Shown here one piece after another: positions 12 through 56,763 of a DNA stretch of 64,000 nt. Location of the stretch: the NCBI RefSeq assembly GCF_001886815.1, contig NZ_CP018099.1:2540501-2604500 (forward strand), written 5' to 3'. Both the position numbers and the translations under genes were made by a program. This DNA is from Caldithrix abyssi DSM 13497. GTDB lineage: Bacteria; Calditrichota; Calditrichia; Calditrichales; Calditrichaceae. How positions within the stretch are numbered: the stretch's first letter is position 1; every line of letters starts with the position of its first letter. Under the pieces are notes generated by a model. That model made no database searches and was not told where the DNA came from. It saw only the letters and a list, made by a program, of their open reading frames with translations.

Positions 12-817
12 GTCTCAATCCCCTCTGAATAACGGGGGAATTATTTGTTAATTATTATTTGATATTTGATATTTTATTTGGATTGTTTTAAGGTTGATAG
101 GCTAGAGCCAATGATTTTTTGTAATTCTTTACTCTCAGACAATAGAATTCTAATATCCTTTTCTTCAATAAAATTACTGCCTTCAATAATTTTTAGCCAT
201 ATTGTAGTCTCATTTAACTCTTTCAAACATATTCGTAATTTATGCACAAAATCCTTTCGACTTTCTGCACCACGTGCTTCACCATAATTGGCTGCAACAG
301 ACGTCGCACTCCGCAACAACTGAACCGAAAGATGCCTGCTTATATAATCTTCTGACATAATTTTACAAATATTTATTACTTTTACAGAAAAATCGATTAA
401 TCTCTTTTCTAAATCATCTGCTTTCATTTTACTGTCTTTATACTTTTACTATCTAAATAACGATTAACATTAAATTTAATTATTAAATAGAAAATAGCAA
501 ATATCCCGTCTTATTCCCCTCTGAATAACGAGGCAATTATTTGTTAATTATTATTTTATATTTAATATTTTCTATTTGACTAATACCAAAGTGAAAAAAC
601 AGCTCCTTACCACGCTACAAATTTTAAATAGCAAATAAAAAATAACAAATAGAAAATATTCCGTCTCAATCCCCTCTGAATAGCGGGGCCATTATTTGTT
701 ATCTATTATTTTATATTTGTTATTTAATTAAAATCTAAAGTGGTAAAACAGCTCCTTACATGCAGTAAATCTTAAATAGTAAATAAAAAATAACCAATAA
801 CAAATAGAAAATATTCC
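12..817. repeat. three truncated CRISPR repeats with AT-rich insert units
   Basis: Truncated copies of the CRISPR repeat occur at 12-37, 508-533 and 663-688. All stop at the same base: 26 of the 37 bases remain, ending in the GGGG/GAGG block, and the TACTTTCCGAC end is missing. Each is followed by a similar AT-rich arm (ATTATTTGTTAATTATTATT or close to it). Each unit ends, just before the next repeat, with an arm like AAATAGAAAATATTCC that is roughly complementary to the first arm. Units at 534-662 and 689-817 are each 129 bp and share a core containing CAGCTCCTTAC. The unit at 38-507 carries the four-helix bundle gene instead. The arms could form long AT-rich hairpins. Their position at the trailer end fits decayed repeats, but the regular insert does not. 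Confidence 0.8.
74..427 (-). CDS. four-helix bundle protein (23S rRNA IVS / S23 family)
   Basis: This 117-residue protein matches the small helical family encoded in 23S rRNA intervening sequences and related to the accessory Avd proteins of diversity-generating retroelements. Family signatures visible are an N-terminal helix, the stretch QLLRSATSVAANYGEA near residues 36-51, then SRKDFVHKLRICLKELNE. The biochemical role of the family is poorly known; it is thought to form basic pentamers that may bind nucleic acid. The gene is not in rRNA here. It lies between two truncated copies of the CRISPR repeat (12-37 and 508-533), inside AT-rich flanks that resemble the flanks of two gene-less neighbouring units. 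No other gene shares its transcript. Family assignment is confident; function is not. Confidence 0.85.
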   Translation of the reverse strand: MKADDLEKRLIDFSVKVINICKIMSEDYISRHLSVQLLRSATSVAANYGEARGAESRKDFVHKLRICLKELNETTIWLKIIEGSNFIEEKDIRILLSESKELQKIIGSSLSTLKQSK

Positions 818-9537: not shown

Positions 9538-10783
9538 AAACGGTTCTACCTTTTTTATTTTATCATTATTCAATTACCATGCCAGTTAAATTAATAGTTT
9601 TTTTAACATCAAAACACATTAATTTCATTAAAAAAACGCTCCCTTTTCACGGCTAACTATGAGGTGATTATTATTGAATTGATAACGCCGGTTATTGTTC
9701 TGATAATTAAACACTCCCTTCGACTTCGCTCCCTTCGACTACGCTCAGGGAGCGGGAATACGGTTGCTGAGCGTAGTCGAAGCAACCGTTGATTGTGAAG
9801 TACCTTCCATCGAATGCGCTCCCCTTCGACTCCGCTCAGGGCAAGCCTTCGGCTCCGCTCAGGGCAAGCCTTCGACTCCGCTCCCTTCGACTGCGCTCAG
9901 GGAGCGGGAATACGGTTGCTGAGCGTAGCCGAAGCAACCGTTGATTGTGAAGTACCTTCCATCGAATGCGCTCCCCCTCGACTTCACTCAGGGCAAGCCT
10001 TCGACTTCGCTCCCTTCGACTGCGCTCAGGGAGCGGGAATACGGTTGCTGAGCGTAGCCGAAGCAACCGTTGATTGTGAAGTACCTTCCATCGAATGCGC
10101 TCCCCCTCGACTTCACTCAGGGCAAGCCTTCGACTTCGCTCCCTTCGGCTCCGCTCAGGGAGCGGGAATACGGTTGCTGAGCGTAGCCGAAAATCGGTTG
10201 CTGAGCGTAGTCGAAGCAACCGTTGATTGTAAAGGCCCTTCCATCTACTACGCTCAGGGAGCGGTAAAGAAAGAAAAAGATTCCACGTCTCCCGCCGGGG
10301 CTGGAGACGTGAAATGACAGGCCGGTGCAAACACTTTGAACCATGATTGGCTTGATTTTGGGATTAAAAGGATTTTCTTTTCTACTCTCCCAAATTTCTC
10401 TTTAAAATGAAGAATAAATTCTTATTGGCGTAAAAAATCATGTAAATCCTTCAATCCTGTTAATCAAGGTTCAAAAATTACCCCTAAACTCCTAAACTCC
10501 TAACCTTTATCACGCGTCACGCCTTCTCAAAACCTTTTTACCTTAAAAATGCCATACCTTTACAGAATGTATTTTAAACTCAGCCAGGCGGCAGCTAAAA
10601 ACCGATGCAAAAGAGCGCCGGAATCCACTCCGGGAAGCCCATTTTTACCACATTTTTACGAATTTTTCTCTTTTTAAGAAAATAACCATTCCGATGGACA
10701 TTTTTTTTTTGTAAATTATCGTTCCATTGCTTTCAAATTATGGAAAGTAAAATTGGCGATAAGGAATTCTTTACGGAGGAATC
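9538..10783. repeat. gene-free repeat region; left copy of inverted repeat flanking the purine cluster
   Basis: No gene is supported here. From about 9713 to 10272 it is filled with variants of short palindromic words such as CTTCGACTACGCTCAGGGAG and GGTTGCTGAGCGTAGTCGAA, arranged in repeated blocks of about 120-130 bp that include CAACCGTTGATTGTGAAG. From about 10330 to 10478 lies one copy of the GAACCTTGATTAA hairpin unit (reversed). The segment of about 10040-10478 matches 27867-28306 in the opposite orientation. The remaining 10480-10783 is AT-rich upstream sequence of ygeY. ORFs crossing the repeats are artefacts of their composition. Confidence 0.85.
10722..10745. promoter_or_regulatory. 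candidate operator upstream of ygeY
   Basis: An inverted repeat TTCCAT-N12-ATGGAA lies about 40 bp before the ygeY start. A second small palindrome, CCAT-TCCG-ATGG, is at 10686-10697. Both lie in the likely promoter region of the purine cluster and could bind a dimeric regulator. No regulator gene is adjacent, and short palindromes occur by chance in AT-rich DNA, so this is weak. Confidence 0.25.
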
Positions 10784-14332: not shown

Positions 14333-15805
14333 ATGGATAACTGGAACTGGGAAGTACAAAACGAAGATTATCTGAAGAGAACCATTAAACGTTGCCGGGA
14401 AAATAAAATCATCTTACCGACATTTGAACAATTAAAACATCCGGAGACCATTCCGGCCGAAATTCAGGAAGAATTGACGCACATTGATATGGAAGAGCTG
14501 CATCCTCTAAATCTTTTTCGCATTCACTGGCGCAATGATCCGGTAAGCGGAAAGATCGGCGACTACAATTATCTGGAAATCCCTCCGGAAATCACCGGCG
14601 TACGGGCGCGCATCATCGGCATGGTGGGCAAGCACTTCCCCACCGGCGCGCACAAGGTAGGGGCCACCTACGGCTGTCTGGCGCCCTATCTGGTGACCGG
14701 CCGCTTTGATCCGGAATATCACAAGGCCGTCTGGCCTTCCACCGGCAATTACTGTCGAGGCGGCGTGTTTAATTCTGCCCTGCTTTCCGTGCACTCCGTG
14801 GCCATTCTGCCCGAGGAGATGAGCCAGGAACGCTTTGACTGGCTGCGCGAAAAAGGAGCCGAGGTGTACGCCACTCCCGGATGCGAAAGCAATGTTAAGG
14901 AAATTTACGATAAATGTCATGAACTGGCCGCACAAAGCGATGAATATCTGATCCTCAATCAATTCGATCAGTTTGGCAACGCCGTCTGGCATTATGAGAT
15001 TACCGGCTACGCCATTCAGGAAATCTTTAAAAAAGAAAAGTCCGGCAGACAACGATTGAGCGGCTTTGTCAGCGCCACCGGTTCGGCCGGAACCATTGCC
15101 GCTGGCGACTATTTGCGAACCCAATTTCCGCTGATTAAGGTTTTAGGCGCAGAAGCCCTGCAGTGCCCTACCCTGTTGATGAACGGATTTGGCGGTCACC
15201 GTATTGAAGGCATTGGCGATAAACACGTGCCCTGGATTCATAATATTAAAAATCTGGATCTGGTGGCGGCCATTGACGATGAAGACGCCCTGCGCCTGCT
15301 CCGCCTGTTTAACGAACCCGCCGGACAGGAATGGCTGGCCGCTCAGGGCGTTTCGCAGGAAGTCATTGAAAAACTACCTCTTCTGGGCATCTCGTCCTGC
15401 GCCAACCTGCTGGCTTCTATCAAAATGGCCAAATATTACGAAATGAATGAAAATGACGTCATCTTTACCATTTTTACCGATTCGGTTGAAATGTACCATT
15501 CCAGGCTGGAAGAGATGAATCGCAACTGGGGGCCCTATTCCGAATTGCAGGCCGCTGTTGACTGGCACAGCGTCGTCTTAAAACAATCCATCGACTATCT
15601 GAAAGAACTGGATTACTACGCCCGAAAAACCATCCACAATCTGAAATACTTTACCTGGATCGAGCAGCAGGGCAAAGATGTGGAAGAATTGAACGCCCAA
15701 TGGTACGATGAAGATTACTGGCAAAAACGCTTTTCCATTGTTCCCAAATGGGATGCCATGATTCGCCGTTTCAATGAACAGGTAATGGGCGGAAATGGTT
15801 TTTGA
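14333..15805 (+). CDS. PLP-dependent lyase-like protein of purine clusters
   Basis: A 490-residue fold-type II PLP protein of the group annotated only as PLP-dependent protein beta subunit. The lysine is K108 in PTGAHKVGATYG, the phosphate loop is PSTGNYCRGG near 135-144, and a second glycine loop SATGSAGTIAAG lies near 245-256. It resembles TrpB-like or cystathionine-synthase-like enzymes more than threonine synthase. It has a well-placed CAGGAG site and ATG at 14333, 60 bp after the threonine synthase-like gene. Two different PLP enzymes side by side where YgeX would be expected suggests they share or replace the diaminopropionate step. Substrate unknown. Confidence 0.8.
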   Translation: MDNWNWEVQNEDYLKRTIKRCRENKIILPTFEQLKHPETIPAEIQEELTHIDMEELHPLNLFRIHWRNDPVSGKIGDYNYLEIPPEITGVRARIIGMVGKHFPTGAHKVGATYGCLAPYLVTGRFDPEYHKAVWPSTGNYCRGGVFNSALLSVHSVAILPEEMSQERFDWLREKGAEVYATPGCESNVKEIYDKCHELAAQSDEYLILNQFDQFGNAVWHYEITGYAIQEIFKKEKSGRQRLSGFVSATGSAGTIAAGDYLRTQFPLIKVLGAEALQCPTLLMNGFGGHRIEGIGDKHVPWIHNIKNLDLVAAIDDEDALRLLRLFNEPAGQEWLAAQGVSQEVIEKLPLLGISSCANLLASIKMAKYYEMNENDVIFTIFTDSVEMYHSRLEEMNRNWGPYSELQAAVDWHSVVLKQSIDYLKELDYYARKTIHNLKYFTWIEQQGKDVEELNAQWYDEDYWQKRFSIVPKWDAMIRRFNEQVMGGNGF

Positions 15806-15822
15806 GAGCATAACACATGACG

Positions 15823-17096
15823 GGAATTTTGAACCTTGATTAATGGGATTACAGGATTTGCATGATTTTTTGCGCTGGTGAAAGTTTTTGCTCAATTTTA
15901 AGGAAAAATTGTGAGGGCGGAAAAAGAATCATGGTAATCCCCAAATCAAGCAAATCCTGGTTCAGAGTTTTGAACCTTGATTAATGGGATTACAGGATTT
16001 TCATGATTTTTTACGCCGGTGAAAGTTTTTGCTCAATTTTAAGGAAAAATTGTGGGGGCGGAAAAAGAATCATGGTAATCTCCCAATCAGGCAAATCCTG
16101 GTTCAGAGTTTTGAACCTTGATTAATGGGATTAAAGGATTTGCATGATTTTTTACGGCGGTGAAAGTTTTCGCTCAATTTTAAGGAAAAATTGTGGGGGC
16201 GGAAAAAGAATCATGGTAATCTCCCCCAATCAGGCAAATCCTGGTTCAGAGTTTTGAACCTTGATTAATGGGATTACAGGATTTGCATGATTTTTTACGC
16301 CAGTGAAAGTTTTCGCTCAATTTTAGGGAAAATTGTGAGGACGGAAAAAGAATCATGGTAATCCCCCAATCAAGCAAATCCTGGTTCAGAATTTTGAACC
16401 TTGATTAATGGGATTACAGGATTTGCATGATTTTTTGCGCCTGTGAAAGTTTTCGCTCGATTTTAAGGAAAAATTGTGAGGGCGGAAAAAGAATCATGGT
16501 AATCCCCCAATCAGGCAAATCCTGGTTCAGAGTTTTGAACCTTGATTAATGGGATTAAAGGATTTGCATGATTTTTTACGCCTGTGAAAGTTTTCGCTCA
16601 ATTTTAGGGAAAATTGTGAGGACGGAAAAAGAATCATGGTAATCCCCCAATCAAGCAAATCCTGGTTCAGAATTTTGAACCTTGATTAATGGGATTACAG
16701 GATTTGCATGATTTTTTGCGCCGGTGAAAGTTTTAGCTCAATTTTAAGTAAAAATTTTGAGGGCGGAAAAAGAATCATGGTAATCCCCCAATCAGGCAAA
16801 TCCTGGTTCAGAGCTTTGAACCTTGATTAATGGGATTACAGGATTTTCATGATTTTTTACGCCGGTGAAAGTTTTCGCTCAATTTTAGGGAAAAATTGTG
16901 AGGGCGGAAAAAGAATCATGGTAATCCCACAATCAGGCAAATCCTGGTTCAGAGCTTTGAACCTTGATTAATGGGATTACAGGATTTTCATGATTTTTTG
17001 CGCTGGTGAAAGTTTTCGCTCAATTTTAAGTAAAAATTTTGAGGGCGGAAAAAGAATCATGGTAATCCCCCAATCAAGCAAATCCCGGTTCAGAGC
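15823..17096. repeat. nine tandem 141-bp hairpin-forming units
   Basis: Nine head-to-tail units begin (at GAACCTTGATTAATGGGATT) at 15831, 15972, 16113, 16256, 16396, 16537, 16677, 16818 and 16959, with spacing of 140-143 bp. Each unit starts with GAACCTTGATTAATGGGATT and ends with a roughly complementary arm finishing in CAAATCCTGGTTC. The middle contains a second palindrome, CTCAATTTT-AAGGA-AAAATTGTGAG. Each unit can thus fold into a long cruciform or RNA hairpin. Units differ from each other at a few bases. The array sits between two genes of one likely operon and has no coding potential. Confidence 0.95.
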
Positions 17097-17146: not shown

Positions 17147-18604
17147 ATGCGAAACGTAAACATCATTCGCAACGTGTTCATTCCTATTGGAAACAACGAA
17201 TTGCAACTGGTCGATATCCATTTCGACGAAACCATCCATTCCATAGAAAAGCGGTTGCCTGAATCCGTTGCCTGGTCGGAGATAGCCGCGCCCGAGCAAC
17301 GGGCGTCGTTCATCCAAAAAGTTTCGGCGCGTCTGAAGGCGGTGCAAGCTCCGGAAATAGACGGCCAGTTTCTCGTTTTGATGCCGGGAGCCATCGATCC
17401 TCACGTTCACTTTAACACGCCCGGCTTCGAGTTTCGCGAAGATTTTGATCATGCCTCGCTGGCCGCATTGTGGGGAGGCGTTACGACCATTATCGATATG
17501 CCCTGCACTTCTCTGCCGCCGGTGACCTCGCTCCCTAACATGCGCCGTAAATTACAGGCCTTACAAAATCGAGCCTACTGCGATTACGCTTTTTGGGGAG
17601 GCATTTCGGGAACGGACTTCTCCGATGGTCAACGCCTTAAACAGAACATGAAAGAACTGGTAGAAGCCGGCGTGATGGGCTTTAAGGCCTATCTCATTTC
17701 GGGAATGGAAAAATTCACCGATCTTAATGCCGGGCAAATGAAACAGGCAGCGGAATGGATTAAAGATTTGAACGTTCCGCTGGCCGTTCATGCCGAGGAC
17801 AAAGAGCTGGTGGTCACGCGCCGCGGTCAATTTCAGGCGCAAGGCCAAAACGACTGGCAGGCCTATTGCTCGGCTCGCGACATCGAAGCCGAGGCCAGAG
17901 CGGTTTCGTTGATGGCCTCCATCGTCCGCCAGACTGGCGCCGCCGTTCACATCGTTCATTTAAGCTCCAAACGCGGGCTGGAAATCGTTCAAAATGCCCG
18001 AAATAACGACCTGCCCATGACCGCCGAAACCTGCCCGCACTATTTGTATTTTACGCAGCAGGACTTTAAACGTCCGCAGATCAGAAATTATTTAAAAACC
18101 GCTCCCCCCGTAAAATTTGCGGAAGATCGCGACGCGCTATGGCAGGGGCTGGCGGACGGCTCGCTGCTTTTTGTGACCACGGATCATGCCGGTTGCGATC
18201 CTAAAACGGAAAAGGTTTCCGAAAACTTCTGGCAGGTTTACGGCGGCATTCCCGGCGTGGAGCACCGCGTTCCCTTTTTATTCAGCGAGGGCTTTTTGAA
18301 AGGACGGTTAACCCTGGAACAATGCGTCAATCTGCTTTCCACCAATGCGGCCCATTTCTTTAAATTTAAAAACAAGGGCTCATTAGCCAGAGGAAAAGAC
18401 GCCGATTTCGCCCTGATCGATCTATGGCACGGCTGGACGGTAAAAGCAGATGCAATGCACAGTAAGGGAAAGTACACGCCCTTTGAAGGCGTTGAATTTA
18501 AAGCGCAGGTGATTAAAACATTTTTACGCGGCGTCCTGGCCGTGAACCGGGATGAAAACTATCAAACAACAACGCCCATTGGCAAGTTTGTTCCCCGCAA
18601 CTAA
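17147..18604 (+). CDS. hyuA: hydantoinase/allantoinase-like amidohydrolase
   Basis: A 485-residue cyclic-amide hydrolase of the dihydroorotase/allantoinase/hydantoinase superfamily. Metal ligands are H86 and H88 (DPHVHF), the carbamylated lysine K180 (MGFKAYL), a histidine in VHAED near 209, HLSS near 266 and the catalytic aspartate in TTDHAGCDP. These enzymes open ring amides such as hydantoins, dihydropyrimidines or allantoin. In E. coli the equivalent position is held by the D-phenylhydantoinase HyuA; purine-cluster homologues are proposed to open a urate-derived ring. The sequence is also close to allantoinase. ATG 17147 follows AAGAGG. It is separated from the upstream PLP gene by the tandem array and is 27 bp from ssnA. 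Confidence 0.88.
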   Translation: MRNVNIIRNVFIPIGNNELQLVDIHFDETIHSIEKRLPESVAWSEIAAPEQRASFIQKVSARLKAVQAPEIDGQFLVLMPGAIDPHVHFNTPGFEFREDFDHASLAALWGGVTTIIDMPCTSLPPVTSLPNMRRKLQALQNRAYCDYAFWGGISGTDFSDGQRLKQNMKELVEAGVMGFKAYLISGMEKFTDLNAGQMKQAAEWIKDLNVPLAVHAEDKELVVTRRGQFQAQGQNDWQAYCSARDIEAEARAVSLMASIVRQTGAAVHIVHLSSKRGLEIVQNARNNDLPMTAETCPHYLYFTQQDFKRPQIRNYLKTAPPVKFAEDRDALWQGLADGSLLFVTTDHAGCDPKTEKVSENFWQVYGGIPGVEHRVPFLFSEGFLKGRLTLEQCVNLLSTNAAHFFKFKNKGSLARGKDADFALIDLWHGWTVKADAMHSKGKYTPFEGVEFKAQVIKTFLRGVLAVNRDENYQTTTPIGKFVPRN

Positions 18605-19972: not shown

Positions 19973-20157
19973 AAATTTTACTGTCAGCTTAAAAATGATT
20001 AAATTAAGCTATGGTTGAACAATACCATTTTTGATTGGCTGAATGGGTTGAGAGCCTGCACTGTGTGCTTGCACGGAGTGGTCTCTATTTAACTATTCAA
20101 CCATTCAACTATTTAACCGTTCAACATAATAAAAGACGAACCAATTTAAGGAACAAT

Positions 20158-23943: not shown

Positions 23944-24538
23944 AGTTGTAAAAGTTTAGAGTTGCGGTGGTTACGCTCCCCTTCGACTTAGCTCAGGGCA
24001 AGCATTTGACTGCGCTCCCTTCGGCTACGCTCCCTTCGACTGCGCTCAGGGAGCGGGAGTATGGTTGCTGAGCGAAGTTGAAAAGCAGTTGCTGAGAGTA
24101 GTCAAAAATCGGTTGCTGAGCGTAGTCGAAGCAACCGTTGATTTTGAAGAACCTTCCATCGATTTCGCTCCCCTTTTTCACCGCTCCCTTCGGCTACGCT
24201 CAGGGAGCGGGAGTGCGGTTGCTGAGCGTAGTTGAAAAGCAGTTGCTGAGTACAGTCTAAAATCGGTTGCTGAGCGTAGTCGAAGCAACCGTTGATTGTG
24301 AAAGACCTTCCATCGATTTCGCTCCCCTTTTTCACCGCTCCCTTCGGCTACGCTCAGGGAGCGGGAGTACGGTTGCTGAGCGTAGCCGAAAATCGGTTGC
24401 TGAGTGAAGTTGAAAATCGGTTGCTGAGCGTAGTCGAAGCAACCGTTGATTTGTGAAAGACCTTCCATCGATTTCGCTCCCCTTCTTCACCGCTCCCTTC
24501 GACTACGCTCAGGGAGCGGGACATTGGTTGAGCGAAGT
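23944..24538. repeat. CTTCGACTACGCTCAG-type repeat block
   Basis: This gene-free gap between the convergent xdhC and ygfK is filled with the same short palindromic words as 9713-10272 (CTCCCTTCGACTGCGCTCAG, GGTTGCTGAGCGTAGTCGAA). Three larger units of roughly 150 bp recur, each ending in CAACCGTTGATT and CTTCCATCGATTTCGCTCC. Short ORFs across it encode only the translated repeat. It may act as a structured spacer between two converging transcripts. Confidence 0.9.
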
Positions 24539-27688: not shown

Positions 27689-28380
27689 CATATACTCCTG
27701 TAAATCCAACCAAAATTTCGCAATTTCGTAAAATTGCCTGAAGTTAAAGATAAAAATTTTTTTCATTTAGAACAAACAATAAAACAATAGTCGAGATCTG
27801 CAAAGTACGCCAGGCACTTGGTAGCATAACAAGGTGTAAGGCTACATGTTTAGTGGTTTAGGGGGGATTTTTGAACCTTGATTAACAGGATTGAAGGATT
27901 TACATGATTTTTTACGCCAATAAGATTTTATTCTACAATTTAAAAAGAAATTTGGGAGAGCAGAAAAGAAAATCCTTTTATTCCCGAAATTAAGCCAATC
28001 ACGGTTCAAAGTGTTTGCACCGGCCTGTCATTTCACGTCTCCAGCCCCGGGGTGAGACAAGAAATCTTTTTCCTTCCTTACCGCTCCCTGGGCGTAGTAG
28101 ATAGAAGGGCCTTTACAATCAACGGTTGCTTCGGCTACGCTCAGCAACCGCTTTTCAACTTCTCTAAACAACCATACTCCCGCTCCCTGAGCGAAGCCGA
28201 AGGGAGCGCAGTCGAAGGCTTGCCCTGAGCGTAGTCGAAGGGGGGCGCAGTCGATGGAAGGTTCTTCACAATCAACGGTTGCTTCGACTACGCTCAGCAA
28301 CCACTCAACGAACGGCAGCGCCGCCCTGCTGCACACCCTCTCTCAAACTTTTAATTTGAGAGAGGGGTGGAGGGCAAATA
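27689..28380. repeat. right copy of flanking inverted repeat plus hairpins
   Basis: No gene is supported. At 27867-28020 is one GAACCTTGATTAACAGGATT hairpin unit of about 150 bp; at about 28080-28310 are CTTCGACTACGCTCAG-type words. Together 27867-28306 is the reverse complement, with few differences, of about 10040-10478. A perfect 12-bp stem CCCTCTCTCAAA...TTTGAGAGAGGG lies at 28336-28366, 14 bp after the gcvH stop, but lacks a T-run on the gcvH side. The remaining bases next to ygfK hold its promoter. Confidence 0.85.
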
Positions 28381-52637: not shown

Positions 52638-53122
52638 AACATTTTATGCGCTCCTTCACATACCTGTTTTGATTTTAAAAAATGATTAAATAGACAAATG
52701 ATTAAATAGACAAGGCCTTAAAAGCCGCTACCAAAAACGAACCGCCAAGAGCGCAAAGAATGTTTTAAATTAAAAATAGTTTCAATGGCCCTCACGCCCT
52801 GTACCCTCACTCCAGACAAAAGATTAGGAATGACCGTACTTGTAAGGGCGAAGGATTTCCATCCCCACTTTATCCAGAGCGCTTTTTTTATATGACTAAA
52901 GATTAATGCTTACCAGAGTTGAATTGTTCTTGGAAATCCTTCGCCCCTACGTAAACGGTGGTAGGAATTCACCACATTTGCAGAAACATTTTTGAAATGA
53001 CAGACTAACAATTCAACTAATCAACCATTCAACTAATTAACTATTCAACCAATCCATCACGACAGGGCGGGACTAGATCTTCCAGAGGAAGTATCCTAAA
53101 AAGCAATGAGTTGCAAAAATAG
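52638..53122. repeat. gene-free region with inverted dispersed repeat (left copy)
   Basis: No gene is seen. The stretch 52895-53053 matches 56473-56621 in reverse orientation with high similarity, including GGTGGTAGGAATTCA, CATTTGCAGAAACATTTTTG and an ATTCAACTAATTAACTATTC tail. A short direct repeat of AAATGATTAAATAGACAA occurs near 52680. The same ATTCAACCATTCAACTATT words appear upstream of xdhA at about 20079-20125. Confidence 0.75.
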
Positions 53123-55257: not shown

Positions 55258-56763
55258 GGTTCCCTCTCATAAACTATAATCATCTGAAACCTGATATTTC
55301 AATAATCATATAAAATTACAAAATCTTTAATTATAATGCTATCTTTTTTTAGGCCTGAAAATTTGCTTATTATGACAGCTGGCAACTCTTCCCTTCTTCG
55401 GGGAGCTTAGAATACTGCCCATGTAGGATCTATCCAGGCATTGCGGAATGCGAAAATTTTTGTGCCGCCAAAATGGTTGAATAGTTAATTAGTTGAATGG
55501 TCGTCTGCCTATCATTCCGATTCTATCCAATGGCGAGGGGCAATAGTGTAAGAGTATAAGAGGTTATAGGTTTTAAGGTAGTTTTTGAACCTTGATTAAT
55601 ATGATTACAGGATTAACTTGATTTTTTTCACCCGTGAAAGTTTACTCTCAAATTTAAGGCGAAATTTTGCAGGCACAAAAAGCAAATCATGGAAATCCCG
55701 AAATCAAGTAAATCATGGTTCAAATTGATTGGCCGCCGGCCTGTCACTCCTCTTCCCGCCTTTGCATGAAACTGACCAACGCAGGAATCACTTACATCGT
55801 TGGAAATAATCTGCCATGCGAAACTTCCCCCTCTCCCAGACTTTTATTCTGGGAGAGAGAGAATTAAAGGGGGTGAGGGCCACTCCGGGCATTTCCTGCC
55901 ATCGTTGGGCAAAAAAAGTGGATGAGTATAAGAGTTTATAGGTTTTAAGGTAGTTTTTGAACCTTGATTAATATGATTACAGGATTAACTTGATTTTTTT
56001 CACCCGTGAAAGTTTACTCTCAAATTTAAGGCGAAATTTTGTAGGCATAAAAAGCAAATCATGGAAATCCCGAAATCAAGTAAATCATGGTTCAAATTGA
56101 ATGGCCGCCGGCCTGTCACTCCTCTTCCCGCCTTTGCACGAAACTGACCAACGCAGGAATCACTTACACCGTTGGAAATAATCTGCCATGCGAAACTTCC
56201 CCCTCTCCCAGACTTTTATTCTGGGAGAGGGGGAATTAAAGGGGGTGAGGGCCACTTCGGGCATTTCCTGCCACCGTTGGGCAAAAAAGGTGGATGAGTA
56301 TAAGAGTTTATAGGTTTTAAGGTAGTTTTTGAACCTTGATTAATATGATATGCGAGAAAATTATTTTGCGCGCCTTGCGGTTGATTTTGGTTGCGGCTTG
56401 GCTGCCTTGGAATACTGCCCATGTAGGATCTATCCAGGCATTGCGGAATGCGAAAATTTTTGTGCCGCCAAAATGGTTGAATAGTTAATTAGTTGAATGG
56501 TTGAATAGTTAGTCTGTCATTTCAAAAATGTTTCTGCAAATGTGATGAATTCCTACCACCTTTTACGTAGGGCGAAGGAATTTACATGAACAATTCGCCA
56601 ACGGCAAGCATTAATCTTTAGACAAAATAAGCCTTACTGAAAAAATGCAGACGGAAATCCCTGGCCCTTACGGTTCATTTTTGCGTTTGGTTAACAGCAA
56701 TATTTTTTATCTGCGGCTTTTTTTAAGCAGAAAACAAGTCAGCCCCCGGCGCGACAAAAGAGA
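55258..56763. repeat. gene-free repeat region with 372-bp tandem duplication
   Basis: No gene is supported. A block starting AGTATAAGAG at 55553 is repeated at 55925 and, partly, at 56297: exact spacing of 372 bp. Each block holds one GAACCTTGATTAATATGATT hairpin unit and a CTCTCCCAGA...TCTGGGAGAG stem (55831-55857 and 56203-56229). A second sequence, ATGTAGGATCTATCCAGGCA followed by CAAAATGGTTGAATAGTTAA, occurs at about 55420-55497 and again at about 56419-56496, bracketing the tandem part. The reverse copy of the 52895-53053 element is at 56473-56621. Confidence 0.85.

Follow-up and report, generated by a model that had tools for sequence, protein, structure and literature searches.

Why should a cluster of purine-degradation genes in Caldithrix abyssi DSM 13497 be interrupted by nine abutting near-palindromes, and where did these come from? 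The array lies in the 64,000-nt stretch of DNA analysed here (NZ_CP018099.1, positions 2,540,501 to 2,604,500; hereafter the window), between genes 4 and 5 of the cluster, where it fills nearly all of a 1.34 kb gap. The original prediction had offered two answers, namely that the array blocks or stabilises the operon transcript, or that it reflects the expansion of a mobile hairpin element. We favour an answer of the second kind and consider it probable, if some way from certain, that the array arose by local amplification, in tandem, of gene-less, non-autonomous hairpins, which would have spread from a palindromic element linked to a nuclease of the GxxExxY family.

By profile boundaries the array occupies window positions 15828-17092 and consists of nine abutting near-palindromes of 140-143 bp each, and Tandem Repeats Finder (TRF) reported a period of 141 with 9.0 copies at 15827-17095 (93% matches, score 2212). 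Read directly, the units start at 15829, 15970, 16111, 16254, 16394, 16535, 16675, 16816 and 16957 and measure, in order, 141, 141, 143, 140, 141, 140, 141, 141 and 141 bp. TRF, the direct split and the profile thus agree on the nine 141-bp hairpin units that had been predicted. The units are as follows, unit 1 being placed by alignment and by box versus spacer conservation and the others by profile:

15828..15964, + strand, unit 1
15831-15835, GAACC of the unit 1 left arm, with GATT boxes at 15838, 15847, 15855 and 15864
15959-15963, GGTTC of the unit 1 right arm, with AATC boxes at 15927, 15936, 15944 and 15953
15969..16105, + strand, unit 2
16110..16248, + strand, unit 3
16253..16388, + strand, unit 4 (2 differences from unit 6)
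16393..16529, + strand, unit 5
16534..16669, + strand, unit 6 (2 differences from unit 4)
16674..16810, + strand, unit 7
16815..16951, + strand, unit 8
16956..17092, + strand, unit 9

Just 2 differences separate units 4 and 6, and every other pair has 5-12, which indicates that a block was duplicated locally.

Each left arm begins with an outer GAACC, followed by four GATT boxes spaced 9, 8 and 9 nt, and the right arm mirrors it with four AATC boxes and GGTTC. The predicted palindromy was thereby borne out, and its outer and inner arms are more aptly seen as a short phased motif arrayed on one side and inverted on the other, because only the motif positions pair consistently. In an alignment of thirty copies (one or two per genomic cluster, the GxxExxY locus described below supplying two), column identity was 0.986-0.987 in the boxes, compared with 0.78-0.83 in the arm spacers and 0.79 in the loop (boxes versus spacers, p 3e-10), and the consensus helix paired at the boxes and outer ends only. 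Single units folded at about -42 kcal/mol, compared with about -30 for shuffled sequences (z -2.5 to -3.6; reverse strand z -3.5), and the two strands folded about equally well, the sense strand better in 21 of the 57 copies. Not one of 19 pairs showed a compensatory (double) change across the aligned copies. As the boxes are conserved while folding has no strand preference and compensatory change is absent, the constraint would seem to lie in a DNA sequence that a protein recognises and not in an RNA helix.

An iterated profile, run over selected stretches of this one closed genome of 4,978,541 bp, found the same hairpin family in 29 intergenic clusters, with a total of at least 57 copies. 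The arm pattern itself matched 118 sites genome-wide and its reversed control none. The clusters overlap no long, clearly coding open reading frame (ORF), three of them overlapping short predicted ORFs only (103-138 aa), and the genes around the copies come in every arrangement, with no consistent orientation. The recurrences that had been predicted within the window, at 10330-10478, 27867-28020 and 55580, belong to this family by profile (E 1e-23 to 1e-35):

10337..10475, - strand, single dispersed copy (profile E 4e-26)
27870..28008, + strand, single dispersed copy (profile E 2e-24)
55584..55722, + strand, dispersed copy in a 372-bp repeat (TRF and profile)
55956..56094, + strand, dispersed copy in a 372-bp repeat (TRF and profile; a further left end follows from 56329)

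In some cases copy and flanks recur together, with a period of about 260-420 bp, and many copies carry conserved sequence outside the palindrome, GTATAAGAGTTTAGAGGTTTTGAGGTAGTT on the left and AAATTGATTGGCCGCCGGCCTGTCATTCC on the right (for example 55545-55583 and 55723-55760). These conserved flanks imply that the core often travels within a larger composite in the source genome. The nine-unit array is free of them and consists of the core alone, as does a five-unit array at genome position 4920447-4921155. When 60 genomes were searched at the DNA level with a single unit, this returned weak partial matches only, confined to one congener, because the arms diverge fast. Taken with the absence of the array from the nearest relative (see below) and the near identity of units 4 and 6, the dispersal of the family upholds the predicted expansion of a mobile hairpin element.

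The source genome has only one GxxExxY gene (PF13366/TIGR04256, PDDEXK_3; family match E 5e-43), and this gene (locus L084, 1486-1869; G000:C1:2244278-2244661, + strand) lies within an array of the same hairpins, which flank it on both sides (profile E down to 3e-22), with full units upstream, half-units beside the gene and further units downstream. The units of this locus are 58-70% identical, over their full length including the loop, to one copy per dispersed cluster. The family combines inverted boxes phased at about 9 nt with homologous hairpins on either side of a GxxExxY gene of its own genome, two features of the GxxExxY-associated palindromic element that we propose, in which the protein would also act on the arms.

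We then scored nesting in 69 genomes as the best local match between the 260 nt upstream of a gene and the reverse complement of the 260 nt downstream, with a threshold of at least 15. Nested by this measure were 80 of 134 GxxExxY genes, compared with 16 of 763 control genes; within the class the figures were 36/69 and 7/426 (other ORFs of the same loci; p 1e-28), and outside it, in other lineages, 44/65 and 9/337 (control ORFs; p 1e-33). Mismatched pairs of upstream and downstream flanks reached the threshold in 1.9-2.5% of cases. On reading their sequences, the high-scoring controls appeared to include RAYT genes, IVP genes, a terminal-repeat transposase and direct neighbours of GxxExxY genes, so the score finds mobile-element layouts, which validates it. 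IVP genes had been considered as a negative control and were rejected in favour of same-locus ORFs, having different inverted arms of their own. Around GxxExxY genes the arms often begin or end about 30 nt or less from the nuclease domain, and identity within the arms peaks at lag 9.

The arm motif, moreover, goes with the nuclease subfamily. CACAGAG or CGCAAAG repeats accompany GPGLLESxYE proteins, ACGGAT or ACCGAT arms GFLEKVYEN proteins, ACGAATT or GCAGATT arms GFLEAVYQE proteins, ACAGGAT arms GFGFLESVYEK proteins, and GAACC-TGATT arms the GFQEVIYQ proteins, the type of the source genome. Across different GTDB families, arm similarity correlated with protein identity at r 0.355, the maximum of 2000 permutations being 0.108, and nearest protein neighbours had an arm score of 12.4 versus an average of 7.6. 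This shows arms and gene forming one unit. Of 86 genomes that have a GxxExxY gene, 29 contain CCRCARAGNCRCARAG, the commonest arm motif, at least 5 times, as against 1 of 204 without the gene (p 2e-16), and multi-copy hairpins of the CCRCARAGNCRCARAG type therefore occur mainly where the gene is present. We also noted GAACACGGATGG-type arms in the source genome, at G000:C1:2539775-2540142, just before the window, and at 2622494-2624340; elsewhere such arms accompany the GFLEKVYEN subfamily, of which the source genome has no gene.

The GxxExxY protein of the source genome has 127 aa, and its D67, E77-x-K79 and Q91-x3-Y95 are invariant in 30 of 30 aligned members. The best match of its structure model (predicted local distance difference test, pLDDT, 94.8) was 4ic1 (Foldseek E 1.8e-4), the structure of the Cas4 protein SSO0001; the two aligned with Z 9.8 and a root-mean-square deviation of 3.5 over 101 residues. 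Lower matches included another Cas4, MGME1, lambda exonuclease and Holliday-junction resolvases. VIA-align added several restriction enzymes and the Wolbachia CinB/CidB nuclease domains at Z 6-8, within a background of middling Z, and PADLOC gave weak Cas4b matches. Its modelled fold and complete active-site motif suggest a minimal Cas4/RecB-like PD-(D/E)XK nuclease, and nuclease activity is likely.

From the dispersal of the family, the arm grammar, the nesting of GxxExxY genes and the covariation and co-occurrence of arms and gene, we infer a course of recognition, cutting and copying. In the gene-bearing form, a GxxExxY nuclease gene would lie between inverted arms of the same kind. The nuclease would bind the phased boxes, probably where the palindrome is extruded as a cruciform or forms a single-stranded hairpin, and nick or trim it, whereupon repair or replication could add a hairpin copy there or elsewhere. 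Abutting units would then multiply in tandem as unequal exchange or template slippage took place between them. For all this the purine operon would be a tolerant landing site, and any effect on its transcript secondary.

The predicted gene context proved right, the array splitting the purine operon between its fourth and fifth genes. The cluster, all on the + strand, encodes in order an M20 peptidase, a carbamoyltransferase, two pyridoxal phosphate (PLP)-dependent enzymes and two amidohydrolases, and the genes next to the array are:

14333..15805, + strand, PLP-dependent enzyme, probably YgeX-like (PF00291; adjacency to the amidohydrolase kept in relatives)
17147..18604, + strand, amidohydrolase, hydantoinase/allantoinase-like (PF01979; conserved in relatives)

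In eight relatives this pair is adjacent or nearly so. The nearest, a congener whose amidohydrolase is 71% identical (G001), has a YgeX-HydA spacer of about 30 bp without the array; a second (G002) has a spacer of about 290 bp with remnants of other repeats; and a third (G039, L053 6515-7480) has, in place of the hairpins, about 1 kb that, judged by eye, looks like an insert of two genes of toxin-antitoxin type. By the same reading the insert encodes a small DNA-binding protein and a PIN-like protein. Spacers and inserts so different imply that the junction tolerates insertions of different kinds. Among the relatives examined, the array is specific to the source lineage.

Four other explanations had to be weighed against a nuclease-linked element. 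If the array acted as RNA, its structure attenuating, cleaving or stabilising the message of the operon and so giving the two halves unequal levels, its place within a co-directional cluster and the good folding of single units as RNA would be accounted for. We consider this improbable nonetheless, and the predicted block or stabilisation of the transcript found no backing: the array region contained no terminator-like or promoter-like site, the 57 copies show neither a strand bias nor a covarying pair nor a consistent orientation to their neighbouring genes, and the congener with the same gene order lacks the array. The hairpins could also be ordinary repeats like ERIC elements or miniature inverted-repeat transposable elements (MITEs), moved by some transposase, with the GxxExxY gene as a passenger that was inserted or caught. 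Their size and palindromy do resemble ERIC-type elements, and nesting alone is no proof that the protein acts on the arms. We nevertheless find this unlikely, as GxxExxY genes are nested in arms of differing sequence in many lineages, those arms follow the subfamily and often come within about 30 nt of the nuclease domain, and repeated, subfamily-matched nesting is not expected of a passenger.

A Cas4-like fold, the weak Cas4b matches and the concentration of multi-copy motifs in gene-bearing genomes would equally suit hairpins that serve as protective or regulatory nuclease sites, for example in self-marking or defence, instead of as a mobile substrate; but the strongly unequal copy numbers, the tandem amplification and the composite flank duplications speak of spread, not of evenly placed markers, which makes such a role decidedly improbable. 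Mobilisation of REP/BIME-type repeats by RAYT (Y1) transposases, for which the source genome does have three PF01797 genes, is hardly credible here, given that none of the three has a family hairpin within 1.5 kb and that their flanks hold no matching arms (scores 8-9.5). As none is flanked, we rejected the RAYT genes as the source of the hairpins.

Several observations weigh against the nuclease-linked element that we prefer. Roughly 40% of GxxExxY genes score too low to count as nested, and in one genome (G029) the strict arm pattern matches essentially only the pair around the gene. Identity between the units enclosing the source genome's gene and those of the array is only about 66%, and mobilisation of the array therefore does not have to depend on that gene. 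Neither a target-site duplication nor a clean, alignable empty site was found at the hairpin copies, many of which have conserved flanks that blur the duplication check. The covariation of motif and subfamily could be obtained from co-inheritance alone, and both a GxxExxY action on the arms and a movement of the hairpins are suppositions drawn from sequence. The link between motif and gene is not all-or-none, a version that we rejected: in G078, 28 arm sites of the window type stand against no detectable GxxExxY gene, and G265 (68% complete) has 10 CCRCARAG sites, again with no gene detected. The window-type arms of G078 (L282, L283 and L284) have been amplified strongly, and among them one arm is duplicated head-to-tail in 44-bp copies.

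The nesting of GxxExxY genes in dozens of unrelated bacteria suggests an undescribed selfish or mobile repeat system. A wider proposal, which we offer tentatively and find somewhat easier to doubt than to accept, is that GxxExxY proteins are sequence-specific nucleases that read boxes recurring about every 9 nt in palindromic DNA and cause this DNA to be copied. The result would be a minimal class of mobile element, unrelated to HUH or DDE transposases, present in many bacterial lineages and the source of much of the unexplained periodic hairpin repeats of environmental genomes, with the window array as an amplified non-autonomous derivative. Long periodic hairpin repeats (CACAGAG.., ACGAAG.., GGATT..) occur in many environmental bacterial genomes, and the literature that we found names no maker; once they are tied to a single nuclease family, small and easy to express, their origin can be tested directly. 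If true, it would give a function to PF13366/TIGR04256, a family named from sequence motifs only, and place a Cas4-like nuclease among the enzymes connected with the spread of repeats. The open-access literature (subscription journals and preprints being outside our scope) mentions GxxExxY in passing only, in two of 5.39 million papers, with no link to repeats, and contained nothing relevant on the repeat oligonucleotides.

A second small protein family, IVP (PF05635, a four-helix bundle), may have a hairpin class of its own. Such a gene lies at window positions 107-406 (- strand) between inverted periodic arms, and gene-less 155-bp tandem units with the same arm letters stand beside it at 485-843. 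Short 8-mer arrays of the ATTCAACT type, like single IVP-type arms, occur at 20087-20125, 53007-53054 and 56472-56510. At 9717-10191 and 24028-24521, tandem repeats of 129-154 bp, made of CTTCGACTACGCTCAGG and its complement, constitute another palindromic family.

Among known systems, the 23S rRNA intervening sequences resemble the window family in being hairpins with or without a small gene, in their case that for IVP. IVP genes of the source genome outside rRNA likewise lie between inverted periodic arms (7 of 9 nested at a score of at least 18), but IVP belongs to another protein fold family, the arms have other motifs and a period apparently nearer 8 nt, and no IVP locus has a window-family hairpin within 1.5 kb. 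With Cas4/RecB-like nucleases the GxxExxY protein shares the fold and the D...ExK...QxxxY residues; unlike Cas4 it is much shorter, and its invariant residues include no iron-sulphur-cluster cysteine. Rfam covariance models matched two tRNAs only, at gathering score, in the whole window. MITE-type terminal inverted repeats are present, as GAACC/GGTTC ends and box arrays in both arms, and among the genes classified near the copies GxxExxY alone is enclosed, in place of any transposase. To our knowledge, neither the arm grammar nor a nuclease association has been described for ERIC, to which the likeness drawn here is one of length, placement and palindromy. Those ERIC/IRU-type enterobacterial repeats (RU-1, 127 bp; PMC2759123) are imperfect palindromes of similar length, intergenic, dispersed and MITE-like. 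The closest likeness in layout is to REP/REPIN-BIME repeats and their RAYT genes, which comprise short dispersed extragenic palindromes, an enzyme gene between inverted cognate repeats and many gene-less copies (PMC3116915, PMC2817692). The window family does not belong to them by enzyme, a PD-(D/E)XK nuclease as opposed to a Y1/HUH transposase, or by unit size, 140-143 bp as opposed to 20-40 bp, with arms here of 4-5 nt boxes phased at 8-9 nt. The system is thus REP/RAYT-like in layout, and there is a real chance that it merits a class of its own.
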